47,648 nucleotides of DNA, from NCBI GenBank assembly GCA_029821755.1, contig JALGSV010000028.1, forward strand, positions 1-47,648, in the 5' to 3' direction. Below are positions 2,927 to 43,218 of the stretch, in pieces. The first letter of the stretch is position 1; each line of letters begins with the position of its first letter. The notes below the pieces were generated by a model, which did no database searches, was not told the DNA's origin, and was given only the letters and a program-made list of their open reading frames with translations. Origin of the DNA: Candidatus Zipacnadum vermilionense. GTDB lineage: Bacteria > Armatimonadota > Zipacnadia > Zipacnadales > Zipacnadaceae. Position numbers and translations under genes: made by a program.

Positions 2927-2974
2927 GGGCGGATGTTAGCGGGCGGGAACGCCCGCCAACATCCGCCCCTACAG
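2927..2974. repeat. palindromic element abutting the creatininase stop codon
   Basis: GGGCGGATGTT (2927-2937) pairs with AACATCCGCCC (2958-2968). After one A/C mismatch the stem continues as GCGGGCG/CGCCCGC around a GGAA loop, giving 18 paired bases. The right end, TCCGCCCCTACAG (2962-2974), is identical over 13 nt to the right end of the large element at 31447-31459. The creatininase stop codon (2969-2971, read on the minus strand) falls inside this end. Confidence 0.85.
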
Positions 2975-24836: not shown

Positions 24837-24878
24837 TGTAGGGCGCGGGCTCGTACCGCGCCGTCGGTGCTCCCTACA
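24837..24878. repeat. 42-bp mini-element with TGTAGGG/CCCTACA ends covering the GH29 stop codon
   Basis: TGTAGGG (24837-24843) and CCCTACA (24872-24878) are perfect terminal inverted repeats. Inside lies GGCGCGG (24842-24848) pairing with CCGCGCC (24856-24862). The GH29 stop codon (24874-24876 on the minus strand) is within the right end. The segment 24841-24860 matches 28821-28840 in 19 of 20 bases. Confidence 0.85.
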
Positions 24879-26082
24879 AGATTTCCACCGCCACCACCGT
24901 GTCTGCTTGGTCCGGCGGCTCGGAGGGCAAGCCGGTGATCTCTAGGACGTCGCCGTCCCAGCGGGCCTGCGCGGGCTGTCCGGTGGTCACGCACCGGGCG
25001 GCTGCCCGGCAGCGGCCCGGTTCAGCCCGGAGCGTCTCCGTAGTGAGGAACGGTACTCGCAGGCGCTCACCGGGCCAGTAGAAGGCGTGGAAGTAAAGCG
25101 TGCTTCCCTTCCGCGTCATTCGGCCGGCGTGAAAGTTGACCTCCGGCAGGCGCTCGACGCCGTAGACCGACTCACCATGGACCGCCAGCCAGTCGCCGAG
25201 CTGCTCCAGGCGCTCGACCTGCGGCTCGGGCACGCTCCCGTCGCCGCGGGGGCCGATATTGAGCAGGAGATTGCCGCCGTAGACGGCGCAATTGGCCAGC
25301 AGGAAGAGGAGTTGGTTGTGGGTCTTGTAGTTGTGGTCGTGCGGGTTGTAACCCCACAAGTCGTTAATGCAGATGCACAACTCCCAGTCGCGGCCGGGTG
25401 GTGGGGGGGTCAGGGCGTTCTCGGCGGTGTAGAAGTCCTCCGGCAGGCCGGAGCGGTCGTTGATGAGGATCTCGGGCTGCAGGCTTCGCGCCAGGGCGTT
25501 GAGGCCGGTGGCATCGATCAGCTCCGGGGGTAGTACGTCTCCCTGGAACGCCGCCGCCCAGGCAGGACCGTCGTACCAGAGCAGGTCGATCTTCCCGTAG
25601 TTGGACAGCAGTTCCCGGACATGCCCCTTCATGTACTCCTGCATCGCGGCCTGGCCGGAGAGGTCCCCGCGCCGGGCCACTTGCAGGTAAGGAGGGAAGT
25701 GGAAATCCGGAAGCGAGTAGTACAGCCCCACGCGCAGCCCTTCGGCGCGGACCGCGTCGGTGACCTCCCTGACGTAGTCACGCCGGGCACCGTGCCGGGC
25801 GGAGGTGTAGTCGGTCAGTGCTGAGTCGAACAGGCAGAAACCGTCGTGGTGTTTGGTGACAAACACGACGTACTTCGCCCCGGCGCGCTTGGCGAGATGC
25901 GCCCACTGGGCCGCGCAGTCGGAGGCGGGGCAGAACCGGTCGGCCAGGGCCTGGTAGTCGGCTAGGGGGAGGGCCTCTTCATGCTGGCACATGGTGTCGC
26001 GGCCCAGCAGGGAGTAGAGGCCCCAGTGGATGAACATGCCAAAGGAGGCGTCACGGAACCAGTGGATGGGGGAGGTGGACAT
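24874..26082 (-). CDS. GH29 alpha-L-fucosidase
   Basis: A 402-residue enzyme, slightly short for GH29 but complete. Family signatures are unmistakable: FGMFIHWGLYS at 14-24, VTKHHDGF at 75-82, and NYGKIDLLWYDG at 161-172 with the catalytic nucleophile Asp171, plus LLLNIGPRGDG near 275-285. The last 80 residues make the C-terminal sandwich. It cleaves terminal alpha-L-fucose by a retaining mechanism. No signal peptide is present, so it should act in the cytoplasm on imported oligosaccharides. The start has only a distant GAGG, inside a short direct repeat. It follows the GH99/WbsX-like gene by 70 nt. Together with the GH95-like enzyme it gives this region two fucose-linked activities. Confidence 0.95.
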   Translation of the reverse strand: MSTSPIHWFRDASFGMFIHWGLYSLLGRDTMCQHEEALPLADYQALADRFCPASDCAAQWAHLAKRAGAKYVVFVTKHHDGFCLFDSALTDYTSARHGARRDYVREVTDAVRAEGLRVGLYYSLPDFHFPPYLQVARRGDLSGQAAMQEYMKGHVRELLSNYGKIDLLWYDGPAWAAAFQGDVLPPELIDATGLNALARSLQPEILINDRSGLPEDFYTAENALTPPPPGRDWELCICINDLWGYNPHDHNYKTHNQLLFLLANCAVYGGNLLLNIGPRGDGSVPEPQVERLEQLGDWLAVHGESVYGVERLPEVNFHAGRMTRKGSTLYFHAFYWPGERLRVPFLTTETLRAEPGRCRAAARCVTTGQPAQARWDGDVLEITGLPSEPPDQADTVVAVEIL

Positions 26083-26089
26083 TGGGCTT

Positions 26090-26113
26090 CAGACCTCAGA
26101 CCCAGACCTCAGA
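26090..26113. repeat. 11-nt direct repeat CAGACCTCAGA upstream of the GH29 gene
   Basis: The two copies lie at 26090-26100 and 26103-26113, just upstream of the GH29 start. A looser relative (AATCTCAGACTTAAGACT) lies at 27330-27347, upstream of the GH99/WbsX-like gene in the same series. Both could be regulatory sites or repeat debris. Confidence 0.4.
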
Positions 26114-26152
26114 GTCGGCCGGTAGCGGAGACGGTTCTGAGAGAGGGCCGCA

Positions 26153-27313
26153 CTATAGCTCTGCGAGGGCGTCTCTCAGGGCCTCCAGGTACCCCGTGCC
26201 GTACTTCTCCTCCGGCAGCAGATACATGCCCTCTGTCCACTCGTTCCAGGCGTTGATGAAGATGGCCCGGGGCTCGGGGTTCTGTGCGGCTTGCTGGAGG
26301 GCCAGGCGGCAGATCTCGCCGAACTTTTCCGGCGTGTTGCCGACGATGATCGGTTCATAGGATAGCGTCCGGAAATCCATGGGCAGGCTCAGGCCCCGGT
26401 GCCAGCGCGGAGTCACGTCACAACCAACCGTGACTACCGGATGATGCGGGACGCCCCAGCGCTCAATCTGTTGCCAGCAGTGCTGGTGGGACTTGATCAC
26501 GTCCTCGTAGGGCACGATTGGCATCTCGTCCGGCAGCGTGGAGTAAGCCGGGGTGCGGCAGATGTTGTAGGCAAAGACGCTGTTGAAGCCCATCTCCCGG
26601 GCGCGCGGCGGTCGGTCGTAGCCGCAGCAGTAGAGGTTGTCGTCGCAGCAGCCGATGTTGGCCACGAAATACAGGCCGGGCAGGCCGTGGGTCTGGGCGC
26701 GGGCGTCCATGCGCTCCAGGGCAGCGCGGGCGGCAGCGTCGCCCCCCAACTGGTCAGCCAGCTCGTTGACGTTGTAGATGACGTAGACGGGTCTGTCGTA
26801 GAGACGCCAGTAGTTGGGCTCGTGGAAGTAGTGCTCGCAGCAATAGTCCACGACGCGGTCCAGGTCCTCCAGGTAGTGGCGCTGGGGCAGCCAGAGCGAC
26901 TGGCCCTGGTTGACGCCGCGGGCGGCGCACATGCCGGGGATGCCGGTCACCGCCGGCCAGGTGCCCCAGGAGTGGTTCGCCCACATCAGGGCGAACTTCA
27001 TCCGCTCGCGGTTGGGGGCCTGCAGGAAGCCCTTCTCCAGGGCCTCCTCCATCAGGCGGGTCCCGCAGTACCAGTACCAGTCGAAGAGAAAGACACTCAC
27101 GCCGTGGTCGGCGGCGAGATCAATCTGCCGGGCGGCCCAGGCGGGATCGCGCTCGTCGAAGTATCCCCAGGTGGGGACCTTGGGCTGGTGATGGCCGGGG
27201 AAGAGCGGCTGGGAGCTCTTCACCAGCTCCCATTCGGAGAAGCCCTGGCCGTACCAGGCCTGGTAGTGGTCGTTAGGATGCCAGGAAGGGAAGTAGATGG
27301 CGATGGTTTCCAT
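26153..27313 (-). CDS. WbsX / GH99-like domain protein
   Basis: A 386-residue protein beginning IAIYFPSWHPNDHYQAWYG with GFSEWELVK next, the typical opening of the WbsX/GH99-like family, where YFPQ-HP and GF-EW blocks are conserved. Further family marks are VFLFDWYWYCG at 94-104, LMWANHSW near 128-135 and FINAWNEWTEG near 348-358. GH99 enzymes are endo-mannosidases or endo-mannanases; WbsX relatives occur in O-antigen loci and their chemistry is not settled. Neither a signal peptide nor a membrane segment is present. It heads the minus-strand series with the GH29 fucosidase, which makes a glycan-cleaving role a fair inference. It is divergent from the ABC binding lipoprotein. Confidence 0.85.
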   Translation of the reverse strand: METIAIYFPSWHPNDHYQAWYGQGFSEWELVKSSQPLFPGHHQPKVPTWGYFDERDPAWAARQIDLAADHGVSVFLFDWYWYCGTRLMEEALEKGFLQAPNRERMKFALMWANHSWGTWPAVTGIPGMCAARGVNQGQSLWLPQRHYLEDLDRVVDYCCEHYFHEPNYWRLYDRPVYVIYNVNELADQLGGDAAARAALERMDARAQTHGLPGLYFVANIGCCDDNLYCCGYDRPPRAREMGFNSVFAYNICRTPAYSTLPDEMPIVPYEDVIKSHQHCWQQIERWGVPHHPVVTVGCDVTPRWHRGLSLPMDFRTLSYEPIIVGNTPEKFGEICRLALQQAAQNPEPRAIFINAWNEWTEGMYLLPEEKYGTGYLEALRDALAEL

Positions 27314-27391
27314 GGGGGATGACTCCGAATCTCAGACTTAAGACTGGAACGCGAGACGCGAGCCCGCGGCAGGTATGTGTGTTGGTCGTGC

Positions 27392-27435
27392 GGAATTGTC
27401 AGGCAATTCCGGCGGAGCCGGGCGGGAAGCCCGGC
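27392..27435. repeat. tandem pair of hairpins before the ABC lipoprotein gene
   Basis: GGAATTG (27392-27398) pairs with CAATTCC (27404-27410), and GCCGGGC (27417-27423) pairs with GCCCGGC (27429-27435). The pair lies in the divergent gap 25 nt before the lipoprotein start, so it would be in the 5' leader. Whether it is regulatory or one of the dispersed palindromes is unclear. Confidence 0.7.
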
Positions 27436-27459
27436 CTTCGCGATAGTATGGTGATGCAC

Positions 27460-28809
27460 ATGACTCGCTCCGCCCTTGTTCTACTCGCCGTCCTGGTCTT
27501 CCTCCTTGTGGTGCTCGCGGGATGTCCCAAGCCTCCGCAAGGGGGGGGGCCAGGCACCGGCCCCACGCCGCCCGCCGCGGCGGGGCCGGTGACCGTGAAC
27601 ATGTGGACGATTTGGAACGCCGACCCCCGGCAGGCGGCGCTGGCCGAGATCGTCAAGGACTTTGAGGCGGCCAATCCGGGAACGACCGTGAAGGTCAGCG
27701 CCTTCGAGCCCGATGCGTACAAGACCTCCATCAAGGTAGTGCTGGGCGGCGGGGACGCCCCGGACATCTACTTCGTGTGGTCGGGCGAGAAGATGCTGCA
27801 CAACTTCGTGCGAGGGGGGAGGGTGGCGGACCTGACGCCGTACGTGGACGCCGACGGCGAGGCTTGGCGGGAACGCCTGATCCCGGCCTCGCTGGACCGG
27901 TTCACCTTCGACGGCAAGGTCCGCGGAGTGCCGTACCTGCTGCAGTGCACCTTCTTCTTCTACAACAAGCCGATGTTCGAGAAGCGCGGCTGGCAGACTC
28001 CCAAGACCTGGGAGGAGCTGATCGCTCTGTGTAAGCAGATCAAAGCGGCGGGGGTCACGCCTATCGCGCTGGGCAACGCTCAGAAGTGGCCGGCGCACCA
28101 TTTGCCCTTCGTGCTGACGCAGCGGCTCATCGGCAAGGAAGCCTCGGAGCAGCAGTACGACCCAACCGGTCCGGGGGACTACTCGGACCCCAGCTTCGTC
28201 ACAGCCCTACAGATGTTCTCGGACTTCGCTAAGCAGGGGTTCTTCAACGACAGCCCCAATGGGACCCTCCGGGAGACCGCGCGCACGCTGTTCTACTCAG
28301 GGAAGACCGCGATGTTCTACACTGGGACCTGGGACTTCGCGCGCTTCAGCAAGGGCGGGGAGGCGCCGGAGAGCTTCTGGGACCAGTGGGACTTCTTCAA
28401 CTTCCCCTCGGTGGCCGGGGGCAAGGGAGATCAGGCGGCGCTGGCGGGCTCACCAGACGGGTTTGTAGTTAGTGAGAGTAGCCAGGTGAAGGACGCGGCG
28501 GTCAAGTTCCTGCAGTTCATGACCACCAGAGAGCAAGCGCGCAAGTTCGTGACCTCCTGTCAGGAGATGGTGGAGGTGCAGGACGCGGTGGAGGAGGAGA
28601 TCGCCGGGCCGAAGCTGGCCAAGTACGCGAAGATTGTGGAGGAAGCCAAGCAGATCACGCCCTGGATGGACACGATGATGGAGGCGACGGTGGCCGAGGA
28701 GTACATGAACGGCGTGCAGGGCCTGCTCGGAGGGACGATGACGCCGGAGCAGGTGATGGAGAAGGTGCGCACACGGCAGGCGGCGGTGAAGGCGGAGATG
28801 GGGCGGTAG
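27460..28809 (+). CDS. ABC transporter sugar-binding lipoprotein
   Basis: A 449-residue extracellular binding protein of the family that includes MalE and UgpB. ATGs at 27448, 27454 and 27460 are in frame; 27460 gives a compact lipoprotein signal of 21 residues ending in the lipobox LAGC, with Cys22 as the lipidated residue. A proline- and glycine-rich tether (23-42) leads to the mature domain, starting VTVNMWTIWNADP. Later marks include DAPDIYFVWSG, YLLQCTFFFYNK and MFYTGTWDFA, typical hinge and ligand-site regions. It delivers a sugar or oligosaccharide to the permease encoded two genes downstream. The ligand cannot be read from sequence, but flanking glycosidases favour fucose-, mannose- or HexNAc-containing oligosaccharides. 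Confidence 0.92.
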   Translation: MTRSALVLLAVLVFLLVVLAGCPKPPQGGGPGTGPTPPAAAGPVTVNMWTIWNADPRQAALAEIVKDFEAANPGTTVKVSAFEPDAYKTSIKVVLGGGDAPDIYFVWSGEKMLHNFVRGGRVADLTPYVDADGEAWRERLIPASLDRFTFDGKVRGVPYLLQCTFFFYNKPMFEKRGWQTPKTWEELIALCKQIKAAGVTPIALGNAQKWPAHHLPFVLTQRLIGKEASEQQYDPTGPGDYSDPSFVTALQMFSDFAKQGFFNDSPNGTLRETARTLFYSGKTAMFYTGTWDFARFSKGGEAPESFWDQWDFFNFPSVAGGKGDQAALAGSPDGFVVSESSQVKDAAVKFLQFMTTREQARKFVTSCQEMVEVQDAVEEEIAGPKLAKYAKIVEEAKQITPWMDTMMEATVAEEYMNGVQGLLGGTMTPEQVMEKVRTRQAAVKAEMGR

Positions 28810-28820
28810 GAGGGCTTTTA

Positions 28821-28840
28821 GGGCGCGGGCTCGTGCCGCG
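28821..28840. repeat. second copy of the GGGCGCGGGCTCGT-CCGCG segment
   Basis: This matches 24841-24860 in 19 of 20 bases, the only change being A to G. It lies 12 nt after the TAG stop of the lipoprotein gene and is preceded by TTTTA rather than TGTA. The right-hand CCCTACA end is absent, so it is a partial element. Confidence 0.75.
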
Positions 28841-28868
28841 TCGAAGGGACGGCCGAGAGGTACAGCCG

Positions 28869-29399
28869 ATGTCGAGGGAGCGCGGAGCAATCGGCTGGGC
28901 AGGGGTCCTGCTGAGCGGGGCGGCCGTCGGCGGAATGGTTCCGGCCGCTTTGTGTGCCGTCGGTTTGGCAGGTTGGGTAGTGTCGGGAGTGGGGCCAGAC
29001 TTGGCACTTGAGGGATCTGGGTCAAGCGCCGTTGTTGGGCTCTTCCTTCTGCTCTGGGCGCTGGCCCCCGGGGCGGCCGCGGCCGCCCTTGTACGACTCC
29101 TCGGGTTCGGGCGCACCAGGTGGACGTGGACGTGGGTGGCCGGGGCTAAAGCCCTGGCGGCGATGGCGCTGGGAGGATTCGCAGGCTTCTGGCTGGCGCT
29201 GGGAATCGCGCTGGCCTTCTTCCCGGTGTGGTTCCCTCTGACCAGGGGCGAGATGGACGCCTTTCTCATCTTCCCATTGACCTATCTGGGCGCCTTCGGC
29301 GCAGGGCTAGCGGGGCTGATATGTCCGGTGTTGTGGGCGGAATGGGCGGCGCGGCGATCCCATAGGGATGGAGACGAGCCGCCGTTGGCTGCCGACTGA
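28869..29399 (+). CDS. small membrane protein of unknown function in the ABC series
   Basis: A 176-residue protein from ATG 28869, preceded by GAGAGG; an upstream start at 28833 would read through repeat sequence. About four membrane segments are visible, near 10-35, 52-75, 85-115 and 125-155. The C-terminal tail is charged and cytoplasmic by the positive-inside trend (EWAARRSHRDGDE). I recognise no family. It lies between the binding lipoprotein (59 nt) and the fused permease (68 nt) on the same strand, so it may be an accessory of the transporter, but this rests on position only. Confidence 0.7.
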   Translation: MSRERGAIGWAGVLLSGAAVGGMVPAALCAVGLAGWVVSGVGPDLALEGSGSSAVVGLFLLLWALAPGAAAAALVRLLGFGRTRWTWTWVAGAKALAAMALGGFAGFWLALGIALAFFPVWFPLTRGEMDAFLIFPLTYLGAFGAGLAGLICPVLWAEWAARRSHRDGDEPPLAAD

Positions 29400-29467
29400 C
29401 TGCCGAACGGGCGAATGTCGCGTGCGCCGTCGCGGACGACCGCCCACGAAAGCTGTCCCTACGTTGA

Positions 29468-31348
29468 ATGAAAAAGCGATCCTCCCTAATCGGGTACCTC
29501 CTCGTTCTCCCCGCCCTCGCGGTGTTTGTTTTCTATGTGGCTTACCCCCTGGTCTACACCGTCGTGCTGAGCGCTTATTCGTGGAGCCCGGTCAACCCGG
29601 TGAAGGTCTGGCGGGGGCTGGGGAATTACGCGGACCTGCTGGCCGACCCCAACTTCTACGCGGCGCTACGGAATAACGCTTACTTTGTCCTGCTGTCGTT
29701 GGCGATACAGTTGCCGCTGGCGCTGCTGTTGGCGGTGGCGCTGGGGTCGGCGGCGCGGCGGCACAAGCTGCTCCGAACGGTGTTCTTCTCACCCTTCGTG
29801 CTACCTATCGTCGCCGTGGGTCTGGTGTGGCAGCTCATCTACGACCCCAACCTGGGGGCGCTGAACGCGCTGCTGAAGGCGGTAGGCCACTCCGGTTGGG
29901 CCATCGGCTGGCTGGGGGAGGAGACGCCGGCGATCTTCGCCATCATCGCCGTGTCCTGCTGGCGGTTCGTCGGCTTCCACATGATGATCCTGCTGGCGGG
30001 CCTGCAGGCGATCCCTGAGGAGCTGTACGAGGCGGCCCGGCTGGATGGCGCAGGCCGGTGGGGGGTGTTCGTGCACATCACGCTGCCCTCCCTAAGGCGA
30101 CTGCTGCTGGTGGATGCGCTGTTGATCACGGCGGGGTCGGTGAAGATCTTCGACCTAGTGCAGGTCATGAGCGGGGGCGGGCCGGGGTATTCGTCGGATG
30201 TGCTGGCGACGTACATGTATCGCTCGGCCTTCACGAATGACCGGATGGGGTATGCCGCAGCGCTGGCGGTGGTGATGTTGGTGGTGACGCTGGGGCTGAC
30301 CGTGGCCTACCAGCGGGTTTCGGCGCAGGGCGGGACGGAGGGGCGGCCGGTGAGCTTCCGGAGCTGGCTGGCCTGGGGTGTGGCGCTGGCAGTGGTGGGA
30401 TTGGTGGGCGGGGCGCTGCTGCTGGGGCCGGCCAAGTGGGCGGGGGAGACGCTGCTGGCCCTAGGCGGGTGCGCGGCGGGGTTGTTGGTGCTGTGGCCCC
30501 TGTGCGCCGGGCTGGGGAAGGTATGGGACTGCCTACCGCGTAAGGCGGGGGAGGGGCTGAGGGATGGGCTGCTGGCGCTGGTGGGCGTGGCTTTCTTCCT
30601 GCCGATTGTATGGTCGCTGGTCAGTTCGGTCAAGCCGCAGAATGAGCTCCTGCTGTCGCCGTGGGCGCTGCCGCAGGAGTGGGCGTGGGGCAACTTCGCG
30701 GCGGCGCTGCACGGGGGGATAGGGCTGTACTTCCTTAACAGCGTCGGCCTGACTACGGTGGCGGTGCTGCTGATGCTGGCCCTGAGCCTGCCCGCGGCGT
30801 ATGCGCTGGGGCGGCTGCGGCTGCGCGGGGAGGCTCTCCTACTGGGTCTGATCCTGGGAGGCCTGCTGGTGCCCGTGCATGCGGCACTGTTGCCGCTTTA
30901 CCAGATCAACCAGGCCCTACATTTGCGGGAATACTGGGCAGTGCTGGGGCCCTATGTGGCCTTCTGCCTGCCGCTGTCGGTACTGCTGCTGCGGGCGTAC
31001 TTCCAGGGCCTGCCGGCGGAGCTGATCGAGGCGGCGCGGATGGACGGTGCGGGGCACCTGCGGTTGCTCTGGTCGATTCTCATGCCGGTGGCGCGTCCGG
31101 CCCTGGCGACGGTGGCGATTTTCCAGGCCTCCTGGGTATGGAACGAGCTGCCCATGGCGATGGTCTTCCTCCGCCAGAAGGCGCACATGACCCTGACTGT
31201 GGGCTTGCTGACCTTCCGCGGGGAGCATTCCACCGACTGGGCGGTGGTGATGGCGGGGGTCGTGATGGCGATGGTGCCGGTGCTAGCGCTGTATTTCGCC
31301 TTCCAGCGCCATGTGGTGAAAGGCCTGACGGCGGGCACGATAAAGTAG
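29468..31348 (+). CDS. single-chain fusion of MalF-type and MalG-type ABC sugar permeases
   Basis: A 626-residue protein containing both membrane subunits of a carbohydrate uptake ABC transporter. The first half (1-285) is MalF/UgpA-like: a SLIGYLLVLPALAVFVFY start and an EAA loop at 188-207 (EAARLDGAGRWGVFVHITLP). The second half (365-626) is MalG/UgpE-like with its own EAA loop at 521-540 (EAARMDGAGHLRLLWSILMP). The joining region, 286-364, holds two extra hydrophobic segments (about 300-320 and 327-348), which would set the second half in the correct orientation. In most bacteria these are two genes. There is no frameshift: the frame is open throughout with no obvious internal ribosome site. 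The partner ATPase is not in the window, so a shared MsmX/UgpC-type ATPase is presumed. The stop codon falls in the left end of the large palindromic element. Confidence 0.9.
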   Translation: MKKRSSLIGYLLVLPALAVFVFYVAYPLVYTVVLSAYSWSPVNPVKVWRGLGNYADLLADPNFYAALRNNAYFVLLSLAIQLPLALLLAVALGSAARRHKLLRTVFFSPFVLPIVAVGLVWQLIYDPNLGALNALLKAVGHSGWAIGWLGEETPAIFAIIAVSCWRFVGFHMMILLAGLQAIPEELYEAARLDGAGRWGVFVHITLPSLRRLLLVDALLITAGSVKIFDLVQVMSGGGPGYSSDVLATYMYRSAFTNDRMGYAAALAVVMLVVTLGLTVAYQRVSAQGGTEGRPVSFRSWLAWGVALAVVGLVGGALLLGPAKWAGETLLALGGCAAGLLVLWPLCAGLGKVWDCLPRKAGEGLRDGLLALVGVAFFLPIVWSLVSSVKPQNELLLSPWALPQEWAWGNFAAALHGGIGLYFLNSVGLTTVAVLLMLALSLPAAYALGRLRLRGEALLLGLILGGLLVPVHAALLPLYQINQALHLREYWAVLGPYVAFCLPLSVLLLRAYFQGLPAELIEAARMDGAGHLRLLWSILMPVARPALATVAIFQASWVWNELPMAMVFLRQKAHMTLTVGLLTFRGEHSTDWAVVMAGVVMAMVPVLALYFAFQRHVVKGLTAGTIK

Positions 31349-31457
31349 GGGGGCTGGGACCTCCGCGTGGGGCGGGCTTCCAGCCCGCCCTCCCACAGAC
31401 ATGCCGCCGCTCCCTTGGCGGGCTGGAAGCCCGCCCCACGCGGAGGTCCGCCCCTAC
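31345..31457. mobile_element. 113-bp nested inverted-repeat element (MITE-like) between permease and AMP-ligase genes
   Basis: GTAGGGG (31345-31351) and CCCCTAC (31451-31457) are the ends. Inside, 31357-31389 and 31417-31449 are perfect 33-bp inverted arms. Each arm contains its own 8-bp hairpin (GGCGGGCT-TCC-AGCCCGCC). The middle is 27 nt with no gene. The permease stop codon TAG overlaps the left end and the AMP-ligase ribosome site (AGGAGAG) directly follows the right end. No transposase or clear target duplication is visible. Confidence 0.85.
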
Positions 31458-31470
31458 AGGAGAGACTCTC

Positions 31471-32997
31471 ATGCGCTTACCTCACATCGCAGCGTTCTGG
31501 GACAATGCCGTCCTCCAGCAGCCGGCCTCGCTGTGCTGTGTGCATCGCGAGCGGGAGTGGAGCTTCGCCGAGGCGGACGCGGCGGTGGCGCGGCTGGCGG
31601 GATACCTGCGGGAGGAGGCGGGAGTGGCACGGGGCGACCGGGTGGCGTTGGCCATACCCAACTGCGCGGCGTTTCTGCTGGCTTATTGGGCGGTCCTGCG
31701 GCTGGGGGCGGTGGTGGTGCCGGTGAACTACCGGCTGGGGGTGGAGGAACTGGCGTTCGTGTTCGCGGATTCCGAGCCGGTCGTGGTGTTCCTGCATGAC
31801 AGCCTGCGGGAGAAGGTACTGCCGCCGCTGAAGGCCTCCGGGGTGACGATGAGAGTGCTGGCGGTGGGGGAGGAGGGGGATTCGCCGCAATGCGTCGACG
31901 AATATGCGGGTGCGGACGTGCCCGCGGCGTTGGAGATTGACCCGGAGGACTCGGCGATCATCCTGTATACCTCCGGCACCACCGGCCTGCCCAAGGGCGC
32001 GATGATGCGCCACGTGGACTTGGTCTTCAACGTGCACTGCGCAATCCTGGCGCATTCCTTCCGGCACGAGGATGTGCACCTGCTGGTCATCCCCTGCTTT
32101 GCGCCGACGACGGCGTACAGCCTGTTGCCGAGCTGCGCGTACCTGGCGAGCGCGGTGGTAATGGCGCCGGTGGCGCAGCCGGCGGAGCTGTGCGCGCTGG
32201 TGGACCGGTGGCGGTGCAGCACCTTCATTGGCGTACCGACGCTGTTCAACCTGTTCATGCACGACCCGGCGGTGCGGCGAGCGGACCTGTCGTCGCTCCG
32301 GTTAATCGCCTACTCCGGGTCGCCGATGCCGGCGGGGACGATTGCCCTGCTGCGGGAGCGCTTCCCGCATGTGGCGCTGCACAACTTCTTCGGGCTGACG
32401 GAGACCATCTCCATCACCCACGTCCTCCCCAGCGCCGACGCGGCGGCGCGGGCGGACTCCATTGGCAAGCTGCTGCCGGAGGTCTACGCGCGGATCGCAG
32501 ACGAGAACGGGCAGGACGTCCCGTCAGGGGAGGTAGGGGAGCTGCTGTTGCGGCGGGATTGTGTCATCCCCGGCTACTGGCGGCAGCCGGGGCGGCTGGA
32601 GGAGTCCGTCCGAGACGGCTGGTTCCACACCGGGGACCTGGCGCGACGCGATGAGCAGGGCTACTTCTACGTGCAGGGACGGAAGAAGGAGATGATAATC
32701 GTCGCCGGGCAGAACGTGTATGCGCTGGAGGTGGAGGCGGTGCTGCTGCGGCATTCGGGCGTGCGGGAATGCGCGGTGATCGGGGTCCCGGCGACGGGAG
32801 CCCGGGCGGCGCTGGGGGAGTTGGTGAAGGCCGTCGTCGTCCGCCAGCCCGGCGCGGAACTCACCGAGATCGAGATCAAGCGGCATTGCGCCGAAATCCT
32901 CCCCGGCTACAAGCGCCCGCAGGTGGTGGAGTTCCGGGAGGAGCTGCCCCGGAACGCGGCGGGGAAGGTACTGAAGAGATTGCTGAACGGCCACTGA
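31471..32997 (+). CDS. AMP-binding enzyme, acyl-CoA-synthetase-like
   Basis: A 508-residue adenylate-forming enzyme of normal length, with ATG 31471 after AGGAGAG. The phosphate-binding loop is YTSGTTGLPKGA at 166-177. Other blocks are YSGSPMP and NFFGLTET, the aspartate motif GWFHTGDLARRDEQGY with the following GRKKEMI hinge, and the C-terminal catalytic lysine in NAAGKVLKRLL (K499). Such enzymes activate a carboxylic acid with ATP and usually transfer it to CoA; the acid is unknown. No acyl-carrier protein or beta-oxidation gene is near. Its place behind the sugar transporter is separated by the large inverted repeat, so co-transcription is not assured. Confidence 0.9.
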   Translation: MRLPHIAAFWDNAVLQQPASLCCVHREREWSFAEADAAVARLAGYLREEAGVARGDRVALAIPNCAAFLLAYWAVLRLGAVVVPVNYRLGVEELAFVFADSEPVVVFLHDSLREKVLPPLKASGVTMRVLAVGEEGDSPQCVDEYAGADVPAALEIDPEDSAIILYTSGTTGLPKGAMMRHVDLVFNVHCAILAHSFRHEDVHLLVIPCFAPTTAYSLLPSCAYLASAVVMAPVAQPAELCALVDRWRCSTFIGVPTLFNLFMHDPAVRRADLSSLRLIAYSGSPMPAGTIALLRERFPHVALHNFFGLTETISITHVLPSADAAARADSIGKLLPEVYARIADENGQDVPSGEVGELLLRRDCVIPGYWRQPGRLEESVRDGWFHTGDLARRDEQGYFYVQGRKKEMIIVAGQNVYALEVEAVLLRHSGVRECAVIGVPATGARAALGELVKAVVVRQPGAELTEIEIKRHCAEILPGYKRPQVVEFREELPRNAAGKVLKRLLNGH

Positions 32998-33057
32998 ACG
33001 ACTGTCGGCCAGCCCTGGGAACACCCATGACTCCACTCGACCGCGCCGGAGGTGTCC

Positions 33058-33237
33058 GTGAGCCCGGAGGTGGCGCTGGGCCTGCGCTGGCGGCGGGAGT
33101 TCGACCCGGAGATCCCGGACCAGCAGTGGGAGGTGTGGATATCGGGAAGATTCACTGGCCCAGCGTATCCGGGCGGAAAGACCGACGAGGCCAACGGACT
33201 CTCGGTGGACCGGGTGGTGCTGGGGCCTGTGGAGTAG
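33058..33237 (+). pseudogene. possible remnant of a beta-sandwich domain gene (59 residues)
   Basis: A GTG start at 33058 with GGAGGTG just upstream opens a frame ending in TAG at 33235. It reads WRREFDPEIPDQQWEVWIS and GPAYPGGKTDEANGLSVDRV, with the composition of real protein rather than a shadow frame, and looks like the end of a larger ligand-binding or sandwich domain. The frame is closed upstream by TGA at 33028, so only this piece survives. It may be a decayed end of a gene or a very small protein; I cannot name a family. Confidence 0.4.
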
Positions 33238-33398
33238 GGAGACCTGCTTCGACGCGCCCTTCGTCCACGTCCCAGGGGGGCGTGGGGTGAGACAACAGCG
33301 GCCCGCAGGGAGGAACCTGACGGGTGGTCGGCGAACGACCCACCAGGCGGCGTCCGTGGGGGGCGCCGGCCTTGGCGCATGTCTGCTGCTGTGCAGCT

Positions 33399-33404
33399 GG
33401 GAGG
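33399..33404 (+). promoter_or_regulatory. ribosome site selecting the TTG start at 33412
   Basis: GGGAGG lies 7 nt upstream of TTG 33412. The upstream in-frame ATG at 33379 has only GGGGGG-like sequence at poor spacing. This supports the shorter form, which begins with a charged cytoplasmic tail before the first membrane segment. Confidence 0.5.
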
Positions 33405-33411
33405 CAGAATC

Positions 33412-35382: not shown

Positions 35383-35393
35383 GTCCCGCAGAC

Positions 35394-35411
35394 ACCGGTC
35401 TCCAGACCGGT
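35394..35411. repeat. 18-nt palindrome between converging genes
   Basis: ACCGGTCT (35394-35401) pairs with AGACCGGT (35404-35411) around CC, 12 nt after the OPT-like stop and 15 nt before the aldo/keto reductase stop. There is no T-run. It could end transcripts in both directions or be one of the dispersed palindromes. Confidence 0.7.
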
Positions 35412-35425
35412 ATCGCATCCCCCCC

Positions 35426-36538: not shown

Positions 36539-36558
36539 GAGGGAGGTCTCCTTCGGGT

Positions 36559-36645
36559 GGCACAAGCTTACGAGCTTGTGCCGGCTATGGCGGTGGCTGC
36601 GGAGCCAGGCAGTTAGCTCGCGGAACGCAGGCTAGTAAGCCTGCG
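36559..36645. repeat. pair of strong hairpins between DUF1015 and aldo/keto reductase genes
   Basis: GGCACAAGCT (36559-36568) pairs with AGCTTGTGCC (36573-36582) over TACG. CGCAGGCT (36626-36633) pairs with AGCCTGCG (36638-36645) over AGTA. Both loops are four bases and both stems are perfect. They are 43 nt apart and lie wholly between the genes; the DUF1015 stop TAG is followed by GGGA, close to the element-end form seen elsewhere. Confidence 0.85.
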
Positions 36646-36660
36646 CTACCCGGGATCTCC

Positions 36661-38016
36661 CTAGGCCGTCGCCAAATCGTACAGCACTATCCCCGCCAGC
36701 AGCTTGGGGTAGAAATACGTCCCCTTCTGGGCCATGCGGTCGCCGGTGGCGGCTATGGCCATGACTTCCTGGGCGGTGGTGGGGTTCAGCAGTAGAGCCA
36801 TTTCCTGCTTGCCCGCCTCTACCAGGGCTACGGCCTCCTCCGGGTAACGCGTGAAGCTGATGTTCTCCCCACTCTCCGCATAGGAGCCGGTTAGGCCCAG
36901 CACCTTCGGGATAAGCAGGTTGTGCAGTGCCGCTACCCCCAGACGCTTCCAGGCCTCACTGTGGCCCTCGCCATAGTCGGGGGGTAGGGGAGCATCCTTG
37001 GGCATCAGCAGGAGATAGGCGCTGCGTTCGCGGCCGTAGACGAGGTAGGCCAGGGCGCTCTGCTGCCAGCGGGCCAACATCTCTACCACGGTCTGGGCGA
37101 CCTCGGCGTCGCTGCCGGTGGGGAGGACTACGTTCGCCACCGCAAAAGGCCGGGCGGGGCAGGTGGCGAGCCGATCCCAGGTACCAGGTGAAAGTTTCTC
37201 CAACATGCGATGTGCGGCCAAAATGGTCAGACCGCTGGTCTCGGTGTTGGCGAGGAACATGGTCACGCGTTCGGCTGGGGCCTCCGGGTTCACGCCATGC
37301 GCGGTCCGGTACTCCTCGCGGTAGGCGAGGGCCGTCTCGTAGCGGTGGTGGCCATCGGCGATGACGATCTGCTTTCCCTGGAAGGCTGCCTCCAGCGCCG
37401 CCACCCGGTGGGGATCGGAGATGACCCACATCCGGTGCCGGACGTCCTGCCCGTCGGTGACTTCGAAATACGGAGTCTCCTGCACTACCTCGTCGGTAAT
37501 CCCCTCGGCGGTCAGGTCAGGGTCGCTGTACAGGGCGAAGATCTGGCTGAAGGCCGCCTCGCAGGCCTCCATCAGGGCCAGGCGGTCCAGCTTCGGTCCC
37601 TTGAGTGTGCCCTCATGCGGCAGAATGACGCGGTCCTCATAGGGGTGCAGCTCGACCGCGCCGATGATACCCCGCTGCAGCTTGGTCTCGCCTAGGGGGT
37701 CGGTGTACTGCTCCTCATAGAGGTAGAAGGCGGGGGCCTCGTCGCGGAGCAGGACGCTCTGCGCCTGCCACTGCCGCAGGACCTCCGCGGCCTGCCCGTA
37801 GCGCTCGGGGTCACCGAGGCCGGGCCCGGCGGGCTCGCCCAGGTCTAAGTGGACAATGTTGTAGGGGCTGCGCAAGCAGAACTCAGCCTGCTGGGCTAAG
37901 TTGATGACATCGTAGGGCGGGGCTAGCACATCGGCCAGATTGCCGACCTGCTCCGGGTTGTATCGCCAGCCCCGAAAGGGCTTGACCAAGGTAGGCACAG
38001 TTGGGTAGCGCTCCAT
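36661..38016 (-). CDS. DUF1015-family protein (SerK-like)
   Basis: A 451-residue protein from ATG 38016; the frame is open far upstream but those residues are arginine- and serine-rich with no family signal. Family marks include PFRGWRYNPEQVGNLADVLAPPYDV at the N-terminus (shown here only as the start PFRGWRYNPE and end APPYDV), RVILPHEGTLKGPKLDRL near 136-153 and IADGHHRYETAL near 218-229. DUF1015 proteins share the fold of the archaeal ADP-dependent serine kinase SerK. They are widespread and cytoplasmic, and most are uncharacterised; a serine or small-molecule kinase role is possible but unproven. The protein has no clear tie to sugar metabolism. It is divergent from the broken SGNH gene. 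Confidence 0.88.
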   Translation of the reverse strand: MERYPTVPTLVKPFRGWRYNPEQVGNLADVLAPPYDVINLAQQAEFCLRSPYNIVHLDLGEPAGPGLGDPERYGQAAEVLRQWQAQSVLLRDEAPAFYLYEEQYTDPLGETKLQRGIIGAVELHPYEDRVILPHEGTLKGPKLDRLALMEACEAAFSQIFALYSDPDLTAEGITDEVVQETPYFEVTDGQDVRHRMWVISDPHRVAALEAAFQGKQIVIADGHHRYETALAYREEYRTAHGVNPEAPAERVTMFLANTETSGLTILAAHRMLEKLSPGTWDRLATCPARPFAVANVVLPTGSDAEVAQTVVEMLARWQQSALAYLVYGRERSAYLLLMPKDAPLPPDYGEGHSEAWKRLGVAALHNLLIPKVLGLTGSYAESGENISFTRYPEEAVALVEAGKQEMALLLNPTTAQEVMAIAATGDRMAQKGTYFYPKLLAGIVLYDLATA

Positions 38017-38144
38017 AGCGAAAACGCCGCCACCGGCGGGGACGGCGCAGGGGATGGGTCGGAGGTCAGTATAGCAAGCGGAGGTGGTGTCGGCAAGAGA
38101 GGAGGTGAGCAGCAGTTCGGTACGCTGGTGAGAGCGCGGATCGG

Positions 38145-38163
38145 AAGGCCCGCGCCACGCGGG
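38145..38163. repeat. variant copy of the dispersed GCCCGC-CCACGCGG motif
   Basis: AAGGCCCGCGCCACGCGGG differs from the exact copies at 12336 and 31427 by an extra G and a C-to-G change. It lies in the divergent gap before the SGNH gene. GGGAAGGTCCCTGCCTTCCC-like inverted sequence follows at 38174-38194. Confidence 0.5.
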
Positions 38164-38248
38164 AGCCGGCCGCGGGAAGGTCCCTGCCTTCCCGGTGCCG
38201 AAGTGCGCACCCGCGCGGGATGACGCTGACGCAACCGGAGGTGGCCGT

Positions 38249-39022
38249 ATGTCGCGCCCAAATCGCACGGTCCGGGCAGCTATTCTGGCTCTTTTCACGG
38301 GGGTAATGTTGACCATGTCTGCATACGCTGAGGGGACTGTGGCCCGCCAGCCGGGCTTGGAGAGGTTTCTGGCCAAACTTGACGCCGGGCAGCAGGTGAC
38401 CGTCGTGGCCCTAGCTGACTCCAACACGGAGCAGACCTTCCACACCCGGGGCGCGCTCAACTTCGTGGGCCTGCTGTAGTGCGCCCTGCTGGACAAGTAT
38501 GGCGCCAACAACGCGATCATGATTAACGCTGTCTGCTGCGGCGAGGGAGCCGCTGGTGGTCTGGCCCGGCTGGACCGGGACGTGCTGCGCTTCGCCCCGG
38601 ACCTGGTCATCATCTGCTACTGGGATGGCGACATGGAGGCCCTGCGGCAGATTGTCAAGAAGATTCGCGCCACCGGCCGGGCCGACGTGCTCCTGCGCAT
38701 CAGCAACCCGGTGGTGATACCCAACATGCCTGGGGTCAAGCTCCCCATGGAGATCAACAAGGAATGGCCGGGGATGAGCACCGGGGAGGTAGCACAGAAG
38801 GTGGTGGCGCTGGCCGAGGAGTTAGGTGTGCCCGTGGTGGACCACTATTTGGCCTGGCTTGCGGCCGACACCGAGCACCACGGGCCGCCGGTGTCCAATC
38901 CCAACAAGCTGTGGATGCTGATGTCGGACGCCACGCATCCGGGGCCGTTGGGTCACCTGCTTTCCTACCGCCAACTGGCGCCGTACTTCGGCCTGCCGGA
39001 GAAGCTGCCCTGGGAGCTGTAG
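38249..39022 (+). pseudogene. exported SGNH/GDSL hydrolase interrupted by one in-frame TAG
   Basis: ATG 38249 follows GGAGGTGG and opens a signal peptide (ILALFTGVMLTMSAYA). The frame meets TAG at 38477-38479 (codon 77), then continues without shift to the true stop at 39020. Everything else is intact: the nucleophile block VVALADSNT (Ser58), the glycine-bearing region GGLARLDRDVLRF, the N-P block ISNPV, and the final SDATHPG with Asp227 and His230. The interrupted run reads NFVGLL-stop-CALLDKYG; relatives usually have Gln or a similar residue here, and CAG to TAG is one C-to-T change. It would be an esterase, for instance a glycan deacetylase. A recent null mutation, readthrough or an assembly error are the options. 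Confidence 0.85.
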
Positions 39023-39038
39023 GCGAGGGGGAAGTCCA

Positions 39039-40127
39039 ATGACTCTCCGCGAACGCATCCTGGCGGTCCTGCACGGGCAACAGCCCGACGTGATGCCCTG
39101 GTGCGCCGACCTGACCTACTGGTACGCCGCGCAACAGCACTGGGGGCGACTGCCGGCCAAGTATGAGGGAGCGGCGGGGTTCGTCGATCTGCACCGGGAC
39201 TACCATGTCGGGTACTACCTAGGCTACGCGACGGTGTACGTGACCGAGCAGGAGAACGTGCAGGTCGTGCGTGAAACGGCTGGGCACCTGACTACCACCC
39301 GCTGGCGGACGCCGGTGGGGGAGATCTGGGGCCAGACGTTCTTCTCCGAGCAAACCTGCGCCGCCGCCCCGATGCGCTGGGCGGTACAGTCGCCCGACGA
39401 TCTGCGGGTGCTGCGGTACCTGGCCGAGGCCACCCGGATCACGCCCGACTTTAGCGATTTCGAGGAGCAGAAACGTCTGGCCGGCGACCAGGGGCATCCC
39501 AGCGTCTTCCCGCCGCGCTCGCCGATCTCGCAGATGCTGGCGGAGTGGACGGGCGTAGTCCACCTGACGTACCTACTCGCCGACGCGCGCGAGGCGGTCG
39601 AGAAGACGATCCGGGGCATGGAGAGGGCCGCCGATGGAGCTTTCGAGGCGCTGGTGGCCTGCGACGCGCCCTGGGTGGAGTTCGCCGACAATCTCAGCGG
39701 CGAGGTCATCACCCCCTTCTTCAAGCGCTACCAATACGACTACTACGTGCGGCGGCTGGCGCAGTTGCACGGAGCCGGGAAGATCGTGGGCGTGCACCTG
39801 GACGGGACCATGCGGGGAATCTTGCCGCTGCTGGTGGAGGTAGGGATGGACTTTATCGAGTCAATCACGCCGAAGCCCACCGGCGATGTGGCGGTGGAGG
39901 ACCTGCGGGAGCTGGCCGGGCCGGAGGTGATCCTCTGGGGCGGGATTCCTGGCGCCATGTTCTCCCCGCCCTTCACCGAGGACCAGATGCGGCAGCAGGT
40001 GGAGAAGATTCTGGCGTGCCACTGGCCCAGCGCCAAGTTCATCCTGGCCAGCGCCGACCAGGTCCCGCCCGATGCGGACTTCGAATTGGTGCGGAAGGTG
40101 GGGGAATGGCTGGAGGAGATGTGCTGA
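39039..40127 (+). CDS. URO-D-like (uroporphyrinogen decarboxylase-fold) protein
   Basis: A 362-residue protein, close to true URO-D length, starting after GAGGGGGAAG. It opens MTLRERILAVLHGQQPDVMPW, whose RERILAVLHG core is the standard beginning of the family. A later block is GVHLDGTMRGILP with FIESITPKPTGDV, the barrel strands around the active site. The arginines and aspartate of porphyrin-binding URO-D are not evident, and no heme genes are near. In Armatimonadota-like genomes such proteins occur in many copies in sugar loci; chemistry may involve methyl transfer or decarboxylation of non-porphyrin substrates. It lies 16 nt after the broken SGNH gene and 22 nt before the GH38 mannosidase, so these are one operon. 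Confidence 0.8.
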   Translation: MTLRERILAVLHGQQPDVMPWCADLTYWYAAQQHWGRLPAKYEGAAGFVDLHRDYHVGYYLGYATVYVTEQENVQVVRETAGHLTTTRWRTPVGEIWGQTFFSEQTCAAAPMRWAVQSPDDLRVLRYLAEATRITPDFSDFEEQKRLAGDQGHPSVFPPRSPISQMLAEWTGVVHLTYLLADAREAVEKTIRGMERAADGAFEALVACDAPWVEFADNLSGEVITPFFKRYQYDYYVRRLAQLHGAGKIVGVHLDGTMRGILPLLVEVGMDFIESITPKPTGDVAVEDLRELAGPEVILWGGIPGAMFSPPFTEDQMRQQVEKILACHWPSAKFILASADQVPPDADFELVRKVGEWLEEMC

Positions 40128-40149
40128 ACGGCGGCTGAAGGGAACCGTC

Positions 40150-43100
40150 ATGGACCATCGCATAGTAGTCAAGAAGATCGAGATACTCCAGGGGCTCGCC
40201 ATCGCCGAGAGCCTCCCACTCGGTCCCTGGGAGGCGCGGGCTTGCCGTCACCGGGGGCCGGATGACTATGAGTGGCTGGAGGACTGGCATCCCGTGGAGG
40301 AGGTCTCCTGGTGGGCGGCGCTGCAGACTGTGTTCTTCCGCGCCCGGCTGACGGTGCCCGAGGAGTGGACCGGCCGGGCGGACCTGAGCTTCGAGTTTGC
40401 CGATATGGAGGGGATGGTTTCCGTAGACGGGCACCCCTGGGCCGGGCTGAATGTCTGGGGGCACCGGAGTTGTCCCGCTCCGCCGCCGGGCGAGCCCGAC
40501 CTGCTCCTGGAGTTCCTCAGCTCCCCGGGGACCTTCTCCCACCCTGAACTGGCAGGTACCGCGGGCTCCTTCCGCGGCGGGTCGCTGCAACTGGTGGACG
40601 CGGAGGTGCAGGCAGCAGTTTACGACTTCCGCTTTGCCCTGGAGGCCTACGAGGCCCTCCCCGACGAGCGCCGACGAGCACGGCTGGGGCAGGCGCTGGA
40701 GGAGGCCATGCTGATCCCGGACCTCACCGCGGTGCGGGGGGTTATTCTGCCCCAGATCGCCGAGTCGCGCCGTCTGCTGGCCGAGAGGACCGCCGAGATC
40801 GCGCCGGACCCCGAGGGCGGGCGGCTGCTGATGACCGGGCATTCACATATCGACACGGCCTGGCTCTGGCCGATCCGCGAGACCATCCGGAAGTGCAGCC
40901 GCACCTTCGCCACCGCTTGCCGGATGATGGAGCGCTGCCCCGAGTACCGCTTCTCCTGTCCCCAACCGCAGCTCTACTGGTACACGAAGCGCCATTACCC
41001 CACGCTGTACGAGGAGATCCAGCGCTGGGTCGCCGCGGGCAACTGGGAGACCACCGGTGCGATGTGGGTGGAGGCGGACGCCAACGTCTCCTCCGGCGAG
41101 GCGCTCATCCGACAGATGCTGTATGGCCTGCAGTTCTTCCGGGAGGAGTTCGGCACGCGGCCGACGCTCTGCTGGCTGCCGGATGTTTTCGGCTACAACG
41201 CCGGGATGCCGCAAATCCTGCGAGGTTGCGGCCTGCAGTCGTTCTGGACTTGGAAACTACACTGGCAGTCGCGGGATGAGTTTCCTCACCACCTGTTCTG
41301 GTGGGAGGGGGTGGATGGCAGCCGGGTCATGGCGCACATCCCGAAGTTGGGCGGCGGGGGCTACAGCGGGACACCCAATCCGCAGCAATTGGTCCGTTCC
41401 TGGGAGGCCAACCAGCAGAAGGCGGGCTATGAGGAACAGCTTTTCCCCTTCGGCTACGGCGACGGAGGAGGAGGGGCGACGGAGGAGATGCTGGAGTACC
41501 TGCGCCGGGCGGAGCACTACCCCGGTCTCCCCGCCTGCCGTCAGGGCACGGCGGAGGAGTTCTTCGCCCAAGCCCATGAACAGGCCGGCGAGTTGCCGGT
41601 ATGGGTGGGGGAGTTGTACCTGGAGACCCACCGGGGCACGTACACCTCGCAGGCGCTGACCAAGCGGGGAAACCGGAAGTGTGAGCTGGGCCTGCGGGAG
41701 CTGGAGATCTGGGGCACGCTCGCCGGCAGCGAGGGCTTGCGGGAGACGACAGGAAAGCTGTGGCGCACGGTCCTCTTGCACCAGTTCCACGACATCCTCT
41801 CCGGCAGCTCCATCGGCGAGGTCTATGAGGAGACGGAACGGGACCATGCGCAGGTGCTGCAGGCCGCCGCGGCCGGGCGGGAGGCGGCGCTGGATGCGCT
41901 CTCGGCGGGTGGCGCCGACTGGCGCGTACACAATTCCCTGTCCTGGAAGCGCCGTGATCTCGTGAGCATACCCGGCGGAGGCTTCACTGGACCGGTGGTG
42001 GCTGTGTGCGGAGAGGAGAGGCTCCCGGCTCAGGTAGCGGGGGATGAGGCCGTAGTCGTCGCTCCCATACCCTCAGTAGGAGCCGGGACCGTGACGCTGG
42101 AGCCTGGCAAGCCCCCGGTGACGGCGGTGCGGGCGAAGGGGAACGTCCTGGAGAACGAGTTCTACCGGCTGGAATTGGCCGAGGACGGCTCGATGGGGTG
42201 CCTCTACGACAAGCGCTGCGACCGGGAGGTGCTGGAGGCGGGACAGCGTGGGAACCGGCTCCAACTCTTCCAGGACGGTCCGGTGTACGAGGCCGCCTGG
42301 AACCTGCACGATACCTACGAGAAGCGCGAGTACGCCTGGGAGGGCGAGACGACGGTAGAGGTCGTCGAGTCCGGTCCCGTCCGGGCGCGGGCGCGGGTGA
42401 CCCGCCGGCACCGGGAGACCGTACTGGTGCAGGACATCTGTCTCTACCACGGGCTGCCGCGCATCGACTTCCTCACCCAGGTGGACTGGCGCGAGCGCCA
42501 GACAGTGCTCAAGGCCGCCTTCCCCCTGGCAGTGCGGGCGTACCACGCGACGTACGAGGTCCAGTTCGGCGCCCTCGAGCGCCCCACCCACCGCAACACC
42601 TCCTGGGACCAGGAGAAGTACGAGGTCTGCGCCCAGCGCTGGGCGGACCTGTCCGAGGCGGGCTACGGCGTGAGCCTGCTCAACGACTGCAAGTACGGCT
42701 ACGACTGCCGGGGGAGCCTCTTGCGCCTGACGCTGCTGCGGGGGACGCAATACCCGGACCCCAACGCCGACCTCGGCGAGCACGAGTTCACCTACTCGCT
42801 CCTCCCACACCAGGGAGACTGGCGCGAGGGCGACACAGCACGGGAGGCCTACGCGCTGAACGTGCCGCTGCTGGTCAGGCCGGGCGGTGGGGAGGCCGTG
42901 TCGTACCTGACGGTCGACGGGCCGGCCCTGCTGGAAACCCTCAAGCCGGCGGAAGACGGTAACGGCGTCATCATGCGCCTCTATGAGCCGAACGGCGGGC
43001 GAGGGAGGGTGACGGTGACCCATCGGCTGCCCTATAGTGAGGTCGTGGAGTGCAATATGGTGGAGGAGGGCGAGGAGCCGGTACAGGTGGGAGGACGATC

Positions 43101-43152
43101 GTTCGAGTTTGAGGCGAGCCCGTTTGAGGTGAGGACCTTCCGCCTCACATAG
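40150..43152 (+). CDS. GH38 alpha-mannosidase
   Basis: A 1000-residue enzyme with ATG 40150 after GAAGGGAA. Residues 1-200 are an N-terminal sandwich. The catalytic barrel begins with GHSHIDTAWLW (zinc ligands His231 and Asp235 and the usual TAWLWP). The nucleophile region reads MWVEADANVSSGEAL with Asp310 as the predicted nucleophile and zinc ligand, followed by LPDVFGYNAGMPQIL. LLHQFHDILSGSSIGEVYEE near 550-570 carries the last zinc-site histidine. The remaining 400 residues are the beta-rich C-terminal half. These retaining enzymes cut terminal alpha-mannose. No signal peptide, so it is cytoplasmic. Its stop codon overlaps a TAGGGG element end at 43150. Confidence 0.95.
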   Translation: MDHRIVVKKIEILQGLAIAESLPLGPWEARACRHRGPDDYEWLEDWHPVEEVSWWAALQTVFFRARLTVPEEWTGRADLSFEFADMEGMVSVDGHPWAGLNVWGHRSCPAPPPGEPDLLLEFLSSPGTFSHPELAGTAGSFRGGSLQLVDAEVQAAVYDFRFALEAYEALPDERRRARLGQALEEAMLIPDLTAVRGVILPQIAESRRLLAERTAEIAPDPEGGRLLMTGHSHIDTAWLWPIRETIRKCSRTFATACRMMERCPEYRFSCPQPQLYWYTKRHYPTLYEEIQRWVAAGNWETTGAMWVEADANVSSGEALIRQMLYGLQFFREEFGTRPTLCWLPDVFGYNAGMPQILRGCGLQSFWTWKLHWQSRDEFPHHLFWWEGVDGSRVMAHIPKLGGGGYSGTPNPQQLVRSWEANQQKAGYEEQLFPFGYGDGGGGATEEMLEYLRRAEHYPGLPACRQGTAEEFFAQAHEQAGELPVWVGELYLETHRGTYTSQALTKRGNRKCELGLRELEIWGTLAGSEGLRETTGKLWRTVLLHQFHDILSGSSIGEVYEETERDHAQVLQAAAAGREAALDALSAGGADWRVHNSLSWKRRDLVSIPGGGFTGPVVAVCGEERLPAQVAGDEAVVVAPIPSVGAGTVTLEPGKPPVTAVRAKGNVLENEFYRLELAEDGSMGCLYDKRCDREVLEAGQRGNRLQLFQDGPVYEAAWNLHDTYEKREYAWEGETTVEVVESGPVRARARVTRRHRETVLVQDICLYHGLPRIDFLTQVDWRERQTVLKAAFPLAVRAYHATYEVQFGALERPTHRNTSWDQEKYEVCAQRWADLSEAGYGVSLLNDCKYGYDCRGSLLRLTLLRGTQYPDPNADLGEHEFTYSLLPHQGDWREGDTAREAYALNVPLLVRPGGGEAVSYLTVDGPALLETLKPAEDGNGVIMRLYEPNGGRGRVTVTHRLPYSEVVECNMVEEGEEPVQVGGRSFEFEASPFEVRTFRLT

Positions 43153-43196
43153 GGGCGCAGAGCCTCACCCTCTGCCTCCTCTCCTTGCAGGAGAGG
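43150..43196. repeat. two hairpins beginning at the GH38 stop codon
   Basis: TAGGGGCG starts at the stop codon (43150). GCAGAG (43157-43162) pairs with CTCTGC (43170-43175), and CCTCTCC (43178-43184) pairs with GGAGAGG (43190-43196) over TTGCA. The second hairpin ends 22 nt before the next start codon. The 5' end matches the TGTAGGGGCG end of the other elements in 7 to 8 bases. Confidence 0.75.
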
Positions 43197-43218
43197 GGAA
43201 GAGAATAGGAGACAGACA

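Follow-up and report, generated by a model that had tools for sequence, protein, structure and literature searches.

GTAG-ended palindromic repeats and their coincidence with TAG stop codons in an uncultured Armatimonadota bacterium

The palindromic elements at the gene ends of this bacterium are very probably REPs and BIMEs of the GTAG/GTGG superfamily, presumably dispersed by RAYTs, which survive where they are harmless and accumulate at TAG stop codons. They were examined in the window, an entire contig of 47,648 nucleotides (C88), and in the genome bin to which it belongs (4.39 Mb, 115 contigs). In a test of stop overlap of the kind proposed at the outset, run over 2.4 Mb of this genome, 20 of the 89 clean intergenic ends of one family, F1, lie exactly on TAG stops, and chance alone is rejected for this family. 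The overlap itself has already been reported for GTAG-ended REPs, which in many cases supply a gene's TAG stop (Di Nocera et al. 2013, PMC3733652); what is new here is the measured statistical detail.

Four stops in four sequence contexts

The original prediction was built on four genes whose stop TAG is followed by GGG, at 2969-2971 (minus strand), 24874-24876 (minus), 31346-31348 (plus) and 43150-43152 (plus). Direct reading of the sequence bears out these stops and coordinates, the ends TGTAGGG/CCCTACA of 24837-24878 and GTAGGGG/CCCCTAC of 31345-31457, and the identity of 2962-2974 with 31447-31459 (TCCGCCCCTACAG). It does not bear out the idea that the four stops share one element terminus, since the contexts differ (F1, the tail of an F2 unit, a GTGG-REP dimer and repeat D). 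A single common element behind all four stops is thus ruled out. The features are as follows.

2927..2972, minus strand: F1 REP, GTAG plus hairpin (GTAGGGGCGGATGTTGGCGGGCGTTCCCGCCCGCTAACATCCGCCC), identified by sequence, inverted repeat, fold and family membership
24838..24862, plus strand: F2 REP, GTAG plus GGCGCGG/CCGCGCC hairpin, identified by sequence and related genome copies
24870..24878, minus strand: 3' tail of the F2 unit, CTCCCTACA, identified by sequence
31345..31359, plus strand: left F1-like outer arm, GTAGGGGGGCTGGGA, holding the permease stop 31346-31348, identified by sequence
31360..31446, no strand assigned: B element, two inverted GTGG-REPs (31367-31389 and 31417-31439) forming a multi-copy BIME-like dimer
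31447..31457, minus strand: right F1-like outer arm, TCCGCCCCTAC (GTAGGGGCGGA on the minus strand), identified by sequence
43163..43198, plus strand: repeat D (CCTCACCCTCTGCCTCCTCTCCTTGCAGGAGAGGGG), 13 nt past the GH38 stop, identified by sequence and genome matches

In the creatininase-family gene (2969-3751, minus strand), the stop TAG is the TAG of the F1 REP itself, at distance 0. The hairpin spans 46 nt with 19-nt arms that are 95% complementary, and its fold is predicted at -43.9 kcal/mol. The GH29 gene ends in a different unit, as 24837-24878 is a GTAG hairpin of family F2 (GTAGGGCGCGGGCTCGTACCGCGCC), distinct from F1. Its stop is located in the F2 tail, which reads TGTAGGGAG on the minus strand and so provides the TAG at 24874-24876, and F2's own GTAG lies at the opposite end of the hairpin. 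In the permease element, a GTGG-REP dimer is nested between the arms GTAGGGG.. and ..CCGCCCCTAC. This B element of ~87 bp has 33-nt perfect arms in an inverted-repeat search and is multi-copy, with 86 genome alignments, many of which count a single palindromic copy once in each orientation. Many B copies elsewhere (L027, L034, L044, L048 and others) lie within a further inverted repeat, GGTTGTGTTCA..GAACACAACC, forming nested repeats, and this outer repeat sometimes stands next to GTAG palindromes. The permease gene itself (29468-31348) is a fusion of two ABC sugar permeases in one ORF. The fusion is present in the relatives G001, G016, G026 and G021, and other same-order relatives have separate neighbouring matches.

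The GH38 end (43150-43198) is not a GTAG-REP. Its stop reads ATAG, with A as the base before TAG, no hairpin forms at the stop, and the sequence beyond it belongs to the unrelated repeat D, which has no GTAG end. The hairpin of repeat D (CCTCACCC..CCTCTCC..GGAGAGGGG) begins ~30 nt past the GH38 TAG. In 2.4 Mb of the genome the pattern CCTCACCCCCTGCCCCCTCTCC..GGAGAGGGG gave 105 matches at up to 4 mismatches, compared with 33 for a reversed control, and the matches near gene ends fall mostly 3-20 nt past the stop, after either type of stop codon. Repeat D is possibly a terminator-like or REP-like family; about 80 intergenic matches were seen genome-wide. No Rfam RNA family scored above its gathering score within the window.

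Exact overlap of F1 ends with TAG stops

Overlap statistics were collected over 2.4 of the 4.39 Mb, taken as stretches of the same genome. Genes were called with a simple home-made codon-usage model (1803 genes, coding fraction 0.864), and some family definitions were fixed post hoc. F1 ends were searched with the pattern xTAGGG[AG]C.. followed by a 12-nt arm with up to 3 mismatches, and the same arm matching with TGAGGG or TAAGGG in place of TAGGG provided the controls. A loose hairpin filter on GTAGGG words let about half of them through and was uninformative; arm matching with the TGA/TAA controls was used instead. A long pattern of fixed spacing found no match in the organism's own genome, and the length of the F1 hairpin varies.

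In the 2.4 Mb, 90 of 100 matches to the F1 pattern are intergenic, and 81 of the 89 clean ends start with GTAG. The ends form 25 head-to-head pairs, either short full palindromes of ~44-51 bp or dimers of ~110-184 bp. F1 loci lie between unidirectional genes in 51 cases, between convergent genes in 10 and between divergent genes in 2, yet divergent gaps make up 20% of the intergenic bases. A 15-mer of the family (GTAGGGGCGGATRTT) occurs 41 times in this genome and no more than twice in any of 60 relatives (0-2 copies each), and therefore the expansion of F1 is specific to this genome. One F1 dimer (C38:2450-2562) lies within a called gene of 2478 nt and is either a true intragenic REP or an error of gene calling.

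The placement of F1 relative to stops is sharp. Counting 0-60 nt downstream from stops on the same strand, there are 44 ends, 24 of them at 1-60 nt and 20 at distance 0, where uniform placement within 60 nt would put ~0.7 (P ~2e-24). The TGAGGG and TAAGGG hairpin controls gave none at stops in the same 2.4 Mb, so the excess of F1 at stops is real. One dimer (C67:60448-60596) ends both of its convergent neighbour genes. B elements, whose GTGG contains no stop codon, start at least 8 nt past stops. A second cluster of F1 ends is found 32-36 nt past stops and accounts for 12 of the 24 ends at 1-60 nt (for example C53:78288, C38:127216 and C17:125219). In addition, a few F1 copies have a common 5' flank of ~30 nt (GAGCGTGTAYGAGAAGTCGAATCTGGGCCTC), so that a longer composite may start at the stop.

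An ordinary coincidence, in which TAG is the commonest stop codon and the sequence after stops is rich in G so that TAGGGG arises by chance, is extremely improbable as the explanation of these overlaps. TAG does end 949 of 1793 genes in the 2.4 Mb (53%; TGA 604, TAA 240), GGG follows TAG in 13.8% of cases, TGA in 11.6% and TAA in 9.7% (first 1.2 Mb), and 218 gene ends read GTAG with GG directly after it (2.4 Mb). TAGGGG words as such are unremarkable here, and chance, which the original prediction had allowed for, suffices for the GH38 stop and for TAGGG words that lack a hairpin. Once the hairpin is required, however, TAG has 20 stop overlaps and TGA and TAA have 0, and the copies concerned can be recognised as members of F1; for this family coincidence is refuted. 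The rank of TAG as top stop codon is unusual for a bacterium of 66% G+C, and TAG is also the stop of the compared genes in many same-order relatives.

Gene ends in relatives and how elements may come to lie at stops

We compared by hand the 17 F1-overlapped genes that have a usable homologue, a set composed of F1-overlapped genes only. In 16 of them the gene ends within 3 codons of the same position in at least one relative that lacks the element there, and in 14 this is true of the closest homologue. The closest-homologue exceptions are C114:127949 and C86:1441, which differ by 6 codons, and C67:6376 (UvrC), which differs by 16. C-terminal tails also vary among the relatives themselves. The permease of the same-genus G001 (74%) stops at the same residue with TGA, the next gene begins after a short gap that holds no element, and order-level relatives mostly show the same end with TAG. 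LptB in G002 (89%) and G011 (80%) ends ..YLGERFRM-GTAG with no REP, and here the same GTAG continues into the REP. In G001, TrpE (90%) shares both the end and the TAG, and a REP follows ~20 nt further downstream. The ends of creatininase, the C38:72144 oxidoreductase, a YggS-like gene, C67:60449 and C67:60596 match within one codon. Outside the F1 set, a Zipacnadia homologue of GH38 (57%) has nearly the same end (..RTFRLQ-TAG); the nearest named GH38 relatives belong to a Victivallales bin and a Candidatus Zipacnadia bin. GH29 is ~16 residues shorter than many homologues at about 46% identity, the closest at hand, and may have been trimmed by the F2 element.

Since relatives without the element mostly have the same or near gene ends, the stops pre-exist. 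The proposal that gene ends were rebuilt by the element is therefore not supported: homologues lacking it end at or near the same residue, often already with TAG, which is the finding that the prediction itself had named as decisive against this half of its claim.

The genome holds several REP families, each unit made of GTAG (or GTGG) and a G+C-rich hairpin, and the observations fit a scheme in which the units would be mobilised by the genome's own REP-associated tyrosine (HUH) transposases. Copies would persist where they do no harm. When the GTAG lands on an existing in-frame TAG, the protein would be unchanged or altered in its last few codons only, and because they spare the protein such copies would accumulate. 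Pre-existing GTAG/TAG would thus be the sites where insertion or retention is favoured, and in a TAG-rich genome many of these would be gene ends.

Alternatively, REPs may insert at random near gene ends, with persistence limited to the one frame in three in which the copy brings an in-frame stop at once, so that the element supplies the stop. This would account for the ends that lie up to 6 codons away from those of relatives, as in C114-127949 and C86-1441, and it agrees with the presence of GTAG in non-stop F1 copies, by which the tag is the element's own. We nevertheless regard it as unlikely. In the 2.4 Mb, the 45 nt upstream of stops and the positions 1-7 nt past them are free of F1 ends, so that random insertion would need a purge of two frames in three and of all near misses as well, and most ends match relatives within 3 codons. 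The lack of ends just before or just after stops argues against frame selection alone, without proving targeting.

Another possibility, which we entertain tentatively while judging it somewhat improbable, is that F1, and above all its sub-lineage F1b, is targeted to pre-existing GTAG at stop codons and regenerates GTAG upon insertion. Stop codons make up 22.1% of the GTAG words that are non-coding or stops, and the F1 overlap of 22.5% (20/89) is what would be seen if F1 copies were scattered at random over GTAG words already present. Agreement is incomplete because, among sites up to 60 nt from a stop, 20 F1 ends are at the stop and 24 downstream, whereas the corresponding counts for GTAG words are 572 and 265. 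In favour of targeting, GTAG stops without an element are found in relatives of LptB, C67:60449 and creatininase. Against it, several relatives of the remaining overlapped genes have TGA, TAA or a TAG without the preceding G as their stop. In addition, in the RAYTs studied so far GTAG acts as a guide and cleavage occurs at CT or CA (PMC8266576), which speaks against GTAG as the target. The three positions C-T-C ahead of GTAG are conserved at 62%, 45% and 64% in non-stop F1 copies and at 40%, 25% and 45% in stop-overlapping ones, a difference hinting at two insertion contexts.

F1b (GTAGGGGCGGCTTTCG..CGACAGCCGCCCGTTCGCTAACC; also ..GGCTTTCG..CCGCCCGTTCGCTAACC) also speaks for targeting. Of its 12 copies 9 overlap stops, compared with 11 of the 77 remaining F1 ends (Fisher P 4e-5 for a grouping made post hoc, which counts against it); under a definition by the 3' tail, the stop coincides exactly with 10 of the 15 copies that have an xTAGGG end. 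The suggestion that insertion is tuned to stop codons survives only as a possible sub-hypothesis; F1 overall sits at the 22% GTAG background, as expected for REPs landing on GTAG already in place, and F1b alone exceeds it. Simple tolerance does not fully explain the F1b overlap. That F1b inserts at the pre-existing GTAG of TAG stops, regenerating the stop and sparing the host gene, nonetheless seems to us quite doubtful.

RAYT genes and relation to known repeats

The preferred reading, REPs retained where they are harmless, is in line with the transposase genes of the genome. Y1 transposases are encoded, and three match the RAYT model NF047646 with 93.2, 81.7 and 74.2 bits; two pass the cut-off of 80 and the third is below it. 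RAYT genes lie at C71:182686-183183, C22:120-659 and C22:1992-2516. The top-scoring gene (C71:182686-183183) sits between inverted B dimers, and another adjoins GTAGCACAGGCTTCC.. hairpins. The gene at C22:120-548 has a short GTAGGGGCGGCGCCTGCGCCGCCC hairpin adjoining its 3' end, which is not typical F1. Two RAYT-like genes lie within 2.5 kb in C22:1-3000, one by tandem GGCGGCGCAGGCGCCTCTCGGGATCC and the other by GTAGCACAGGCTTCCAAGCCTGTG hairpins, and these repeats are a third REP family.

Nunvar et al. 2010 (PMC2817692) defined the link between RAYTs and REPs and listed similar units (GTAGGGcGGG..). As in the systems described there and in the REPtrons of PMC8266576, the NF047646 RAYTs here are flanked by inverted palindromes, and the units bear a 5' GTAG or GTGG tag. 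Their high, mainly intergenic copy number and their inverted dimers are features of the GTAG-REP superfamily. Unlike most listed REPs, F1 has longer and more variable stems. The GTAG REPs of PMC3733652 likewise have GTAG at one end of a palindrome, occur as singles and inverted dimers, lie mainly between unidirectional or convergent genes near 3' ends, and nest in other palindromes. The sequence families found here are not identified in the text of that paper that was consulted, the host is different and poorly studied, and the overlap is here measured and compared with relatives.

IS630-type MITEs (Correia, RUP) are also small palindromes, and their target TA could fall inside TAG or TAA stops. 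A TA-duplicating MITE was rejected as the identity of F1, because G is conserved before TAG in 81/89 ends, so that TA alone is not the element boundary; many F1 copies also have no CTA at the other end. The elements are therefore not the new kind of miniature repeat that had been envisaged: in anatomy they match GTAG/GTGG REPs, the accompanying transposases match RAYTs, and the supply of TAG stops by GTAG REPs is already stated in PMC3733652.

A literature search on REPs in Armatimonadota retrieved no publication. These results show GTAG/GTGG REPs together with RAYT genes in an uncultured bacterium that has been little studied. They also turn a one-line remark in the literature into a measured effect, consisting of exact overlap, nothing at the adjacent positions, and the same or near stops where the element is absent. 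If F1b is indeed targeted, it would be a mobile repeat that spreads while leaving stop codons intact. More generally, if GTAG is the insertion target of REPs as well as the tag recognised by RAYTs, the spread of REPs would be buffered by stop codons.
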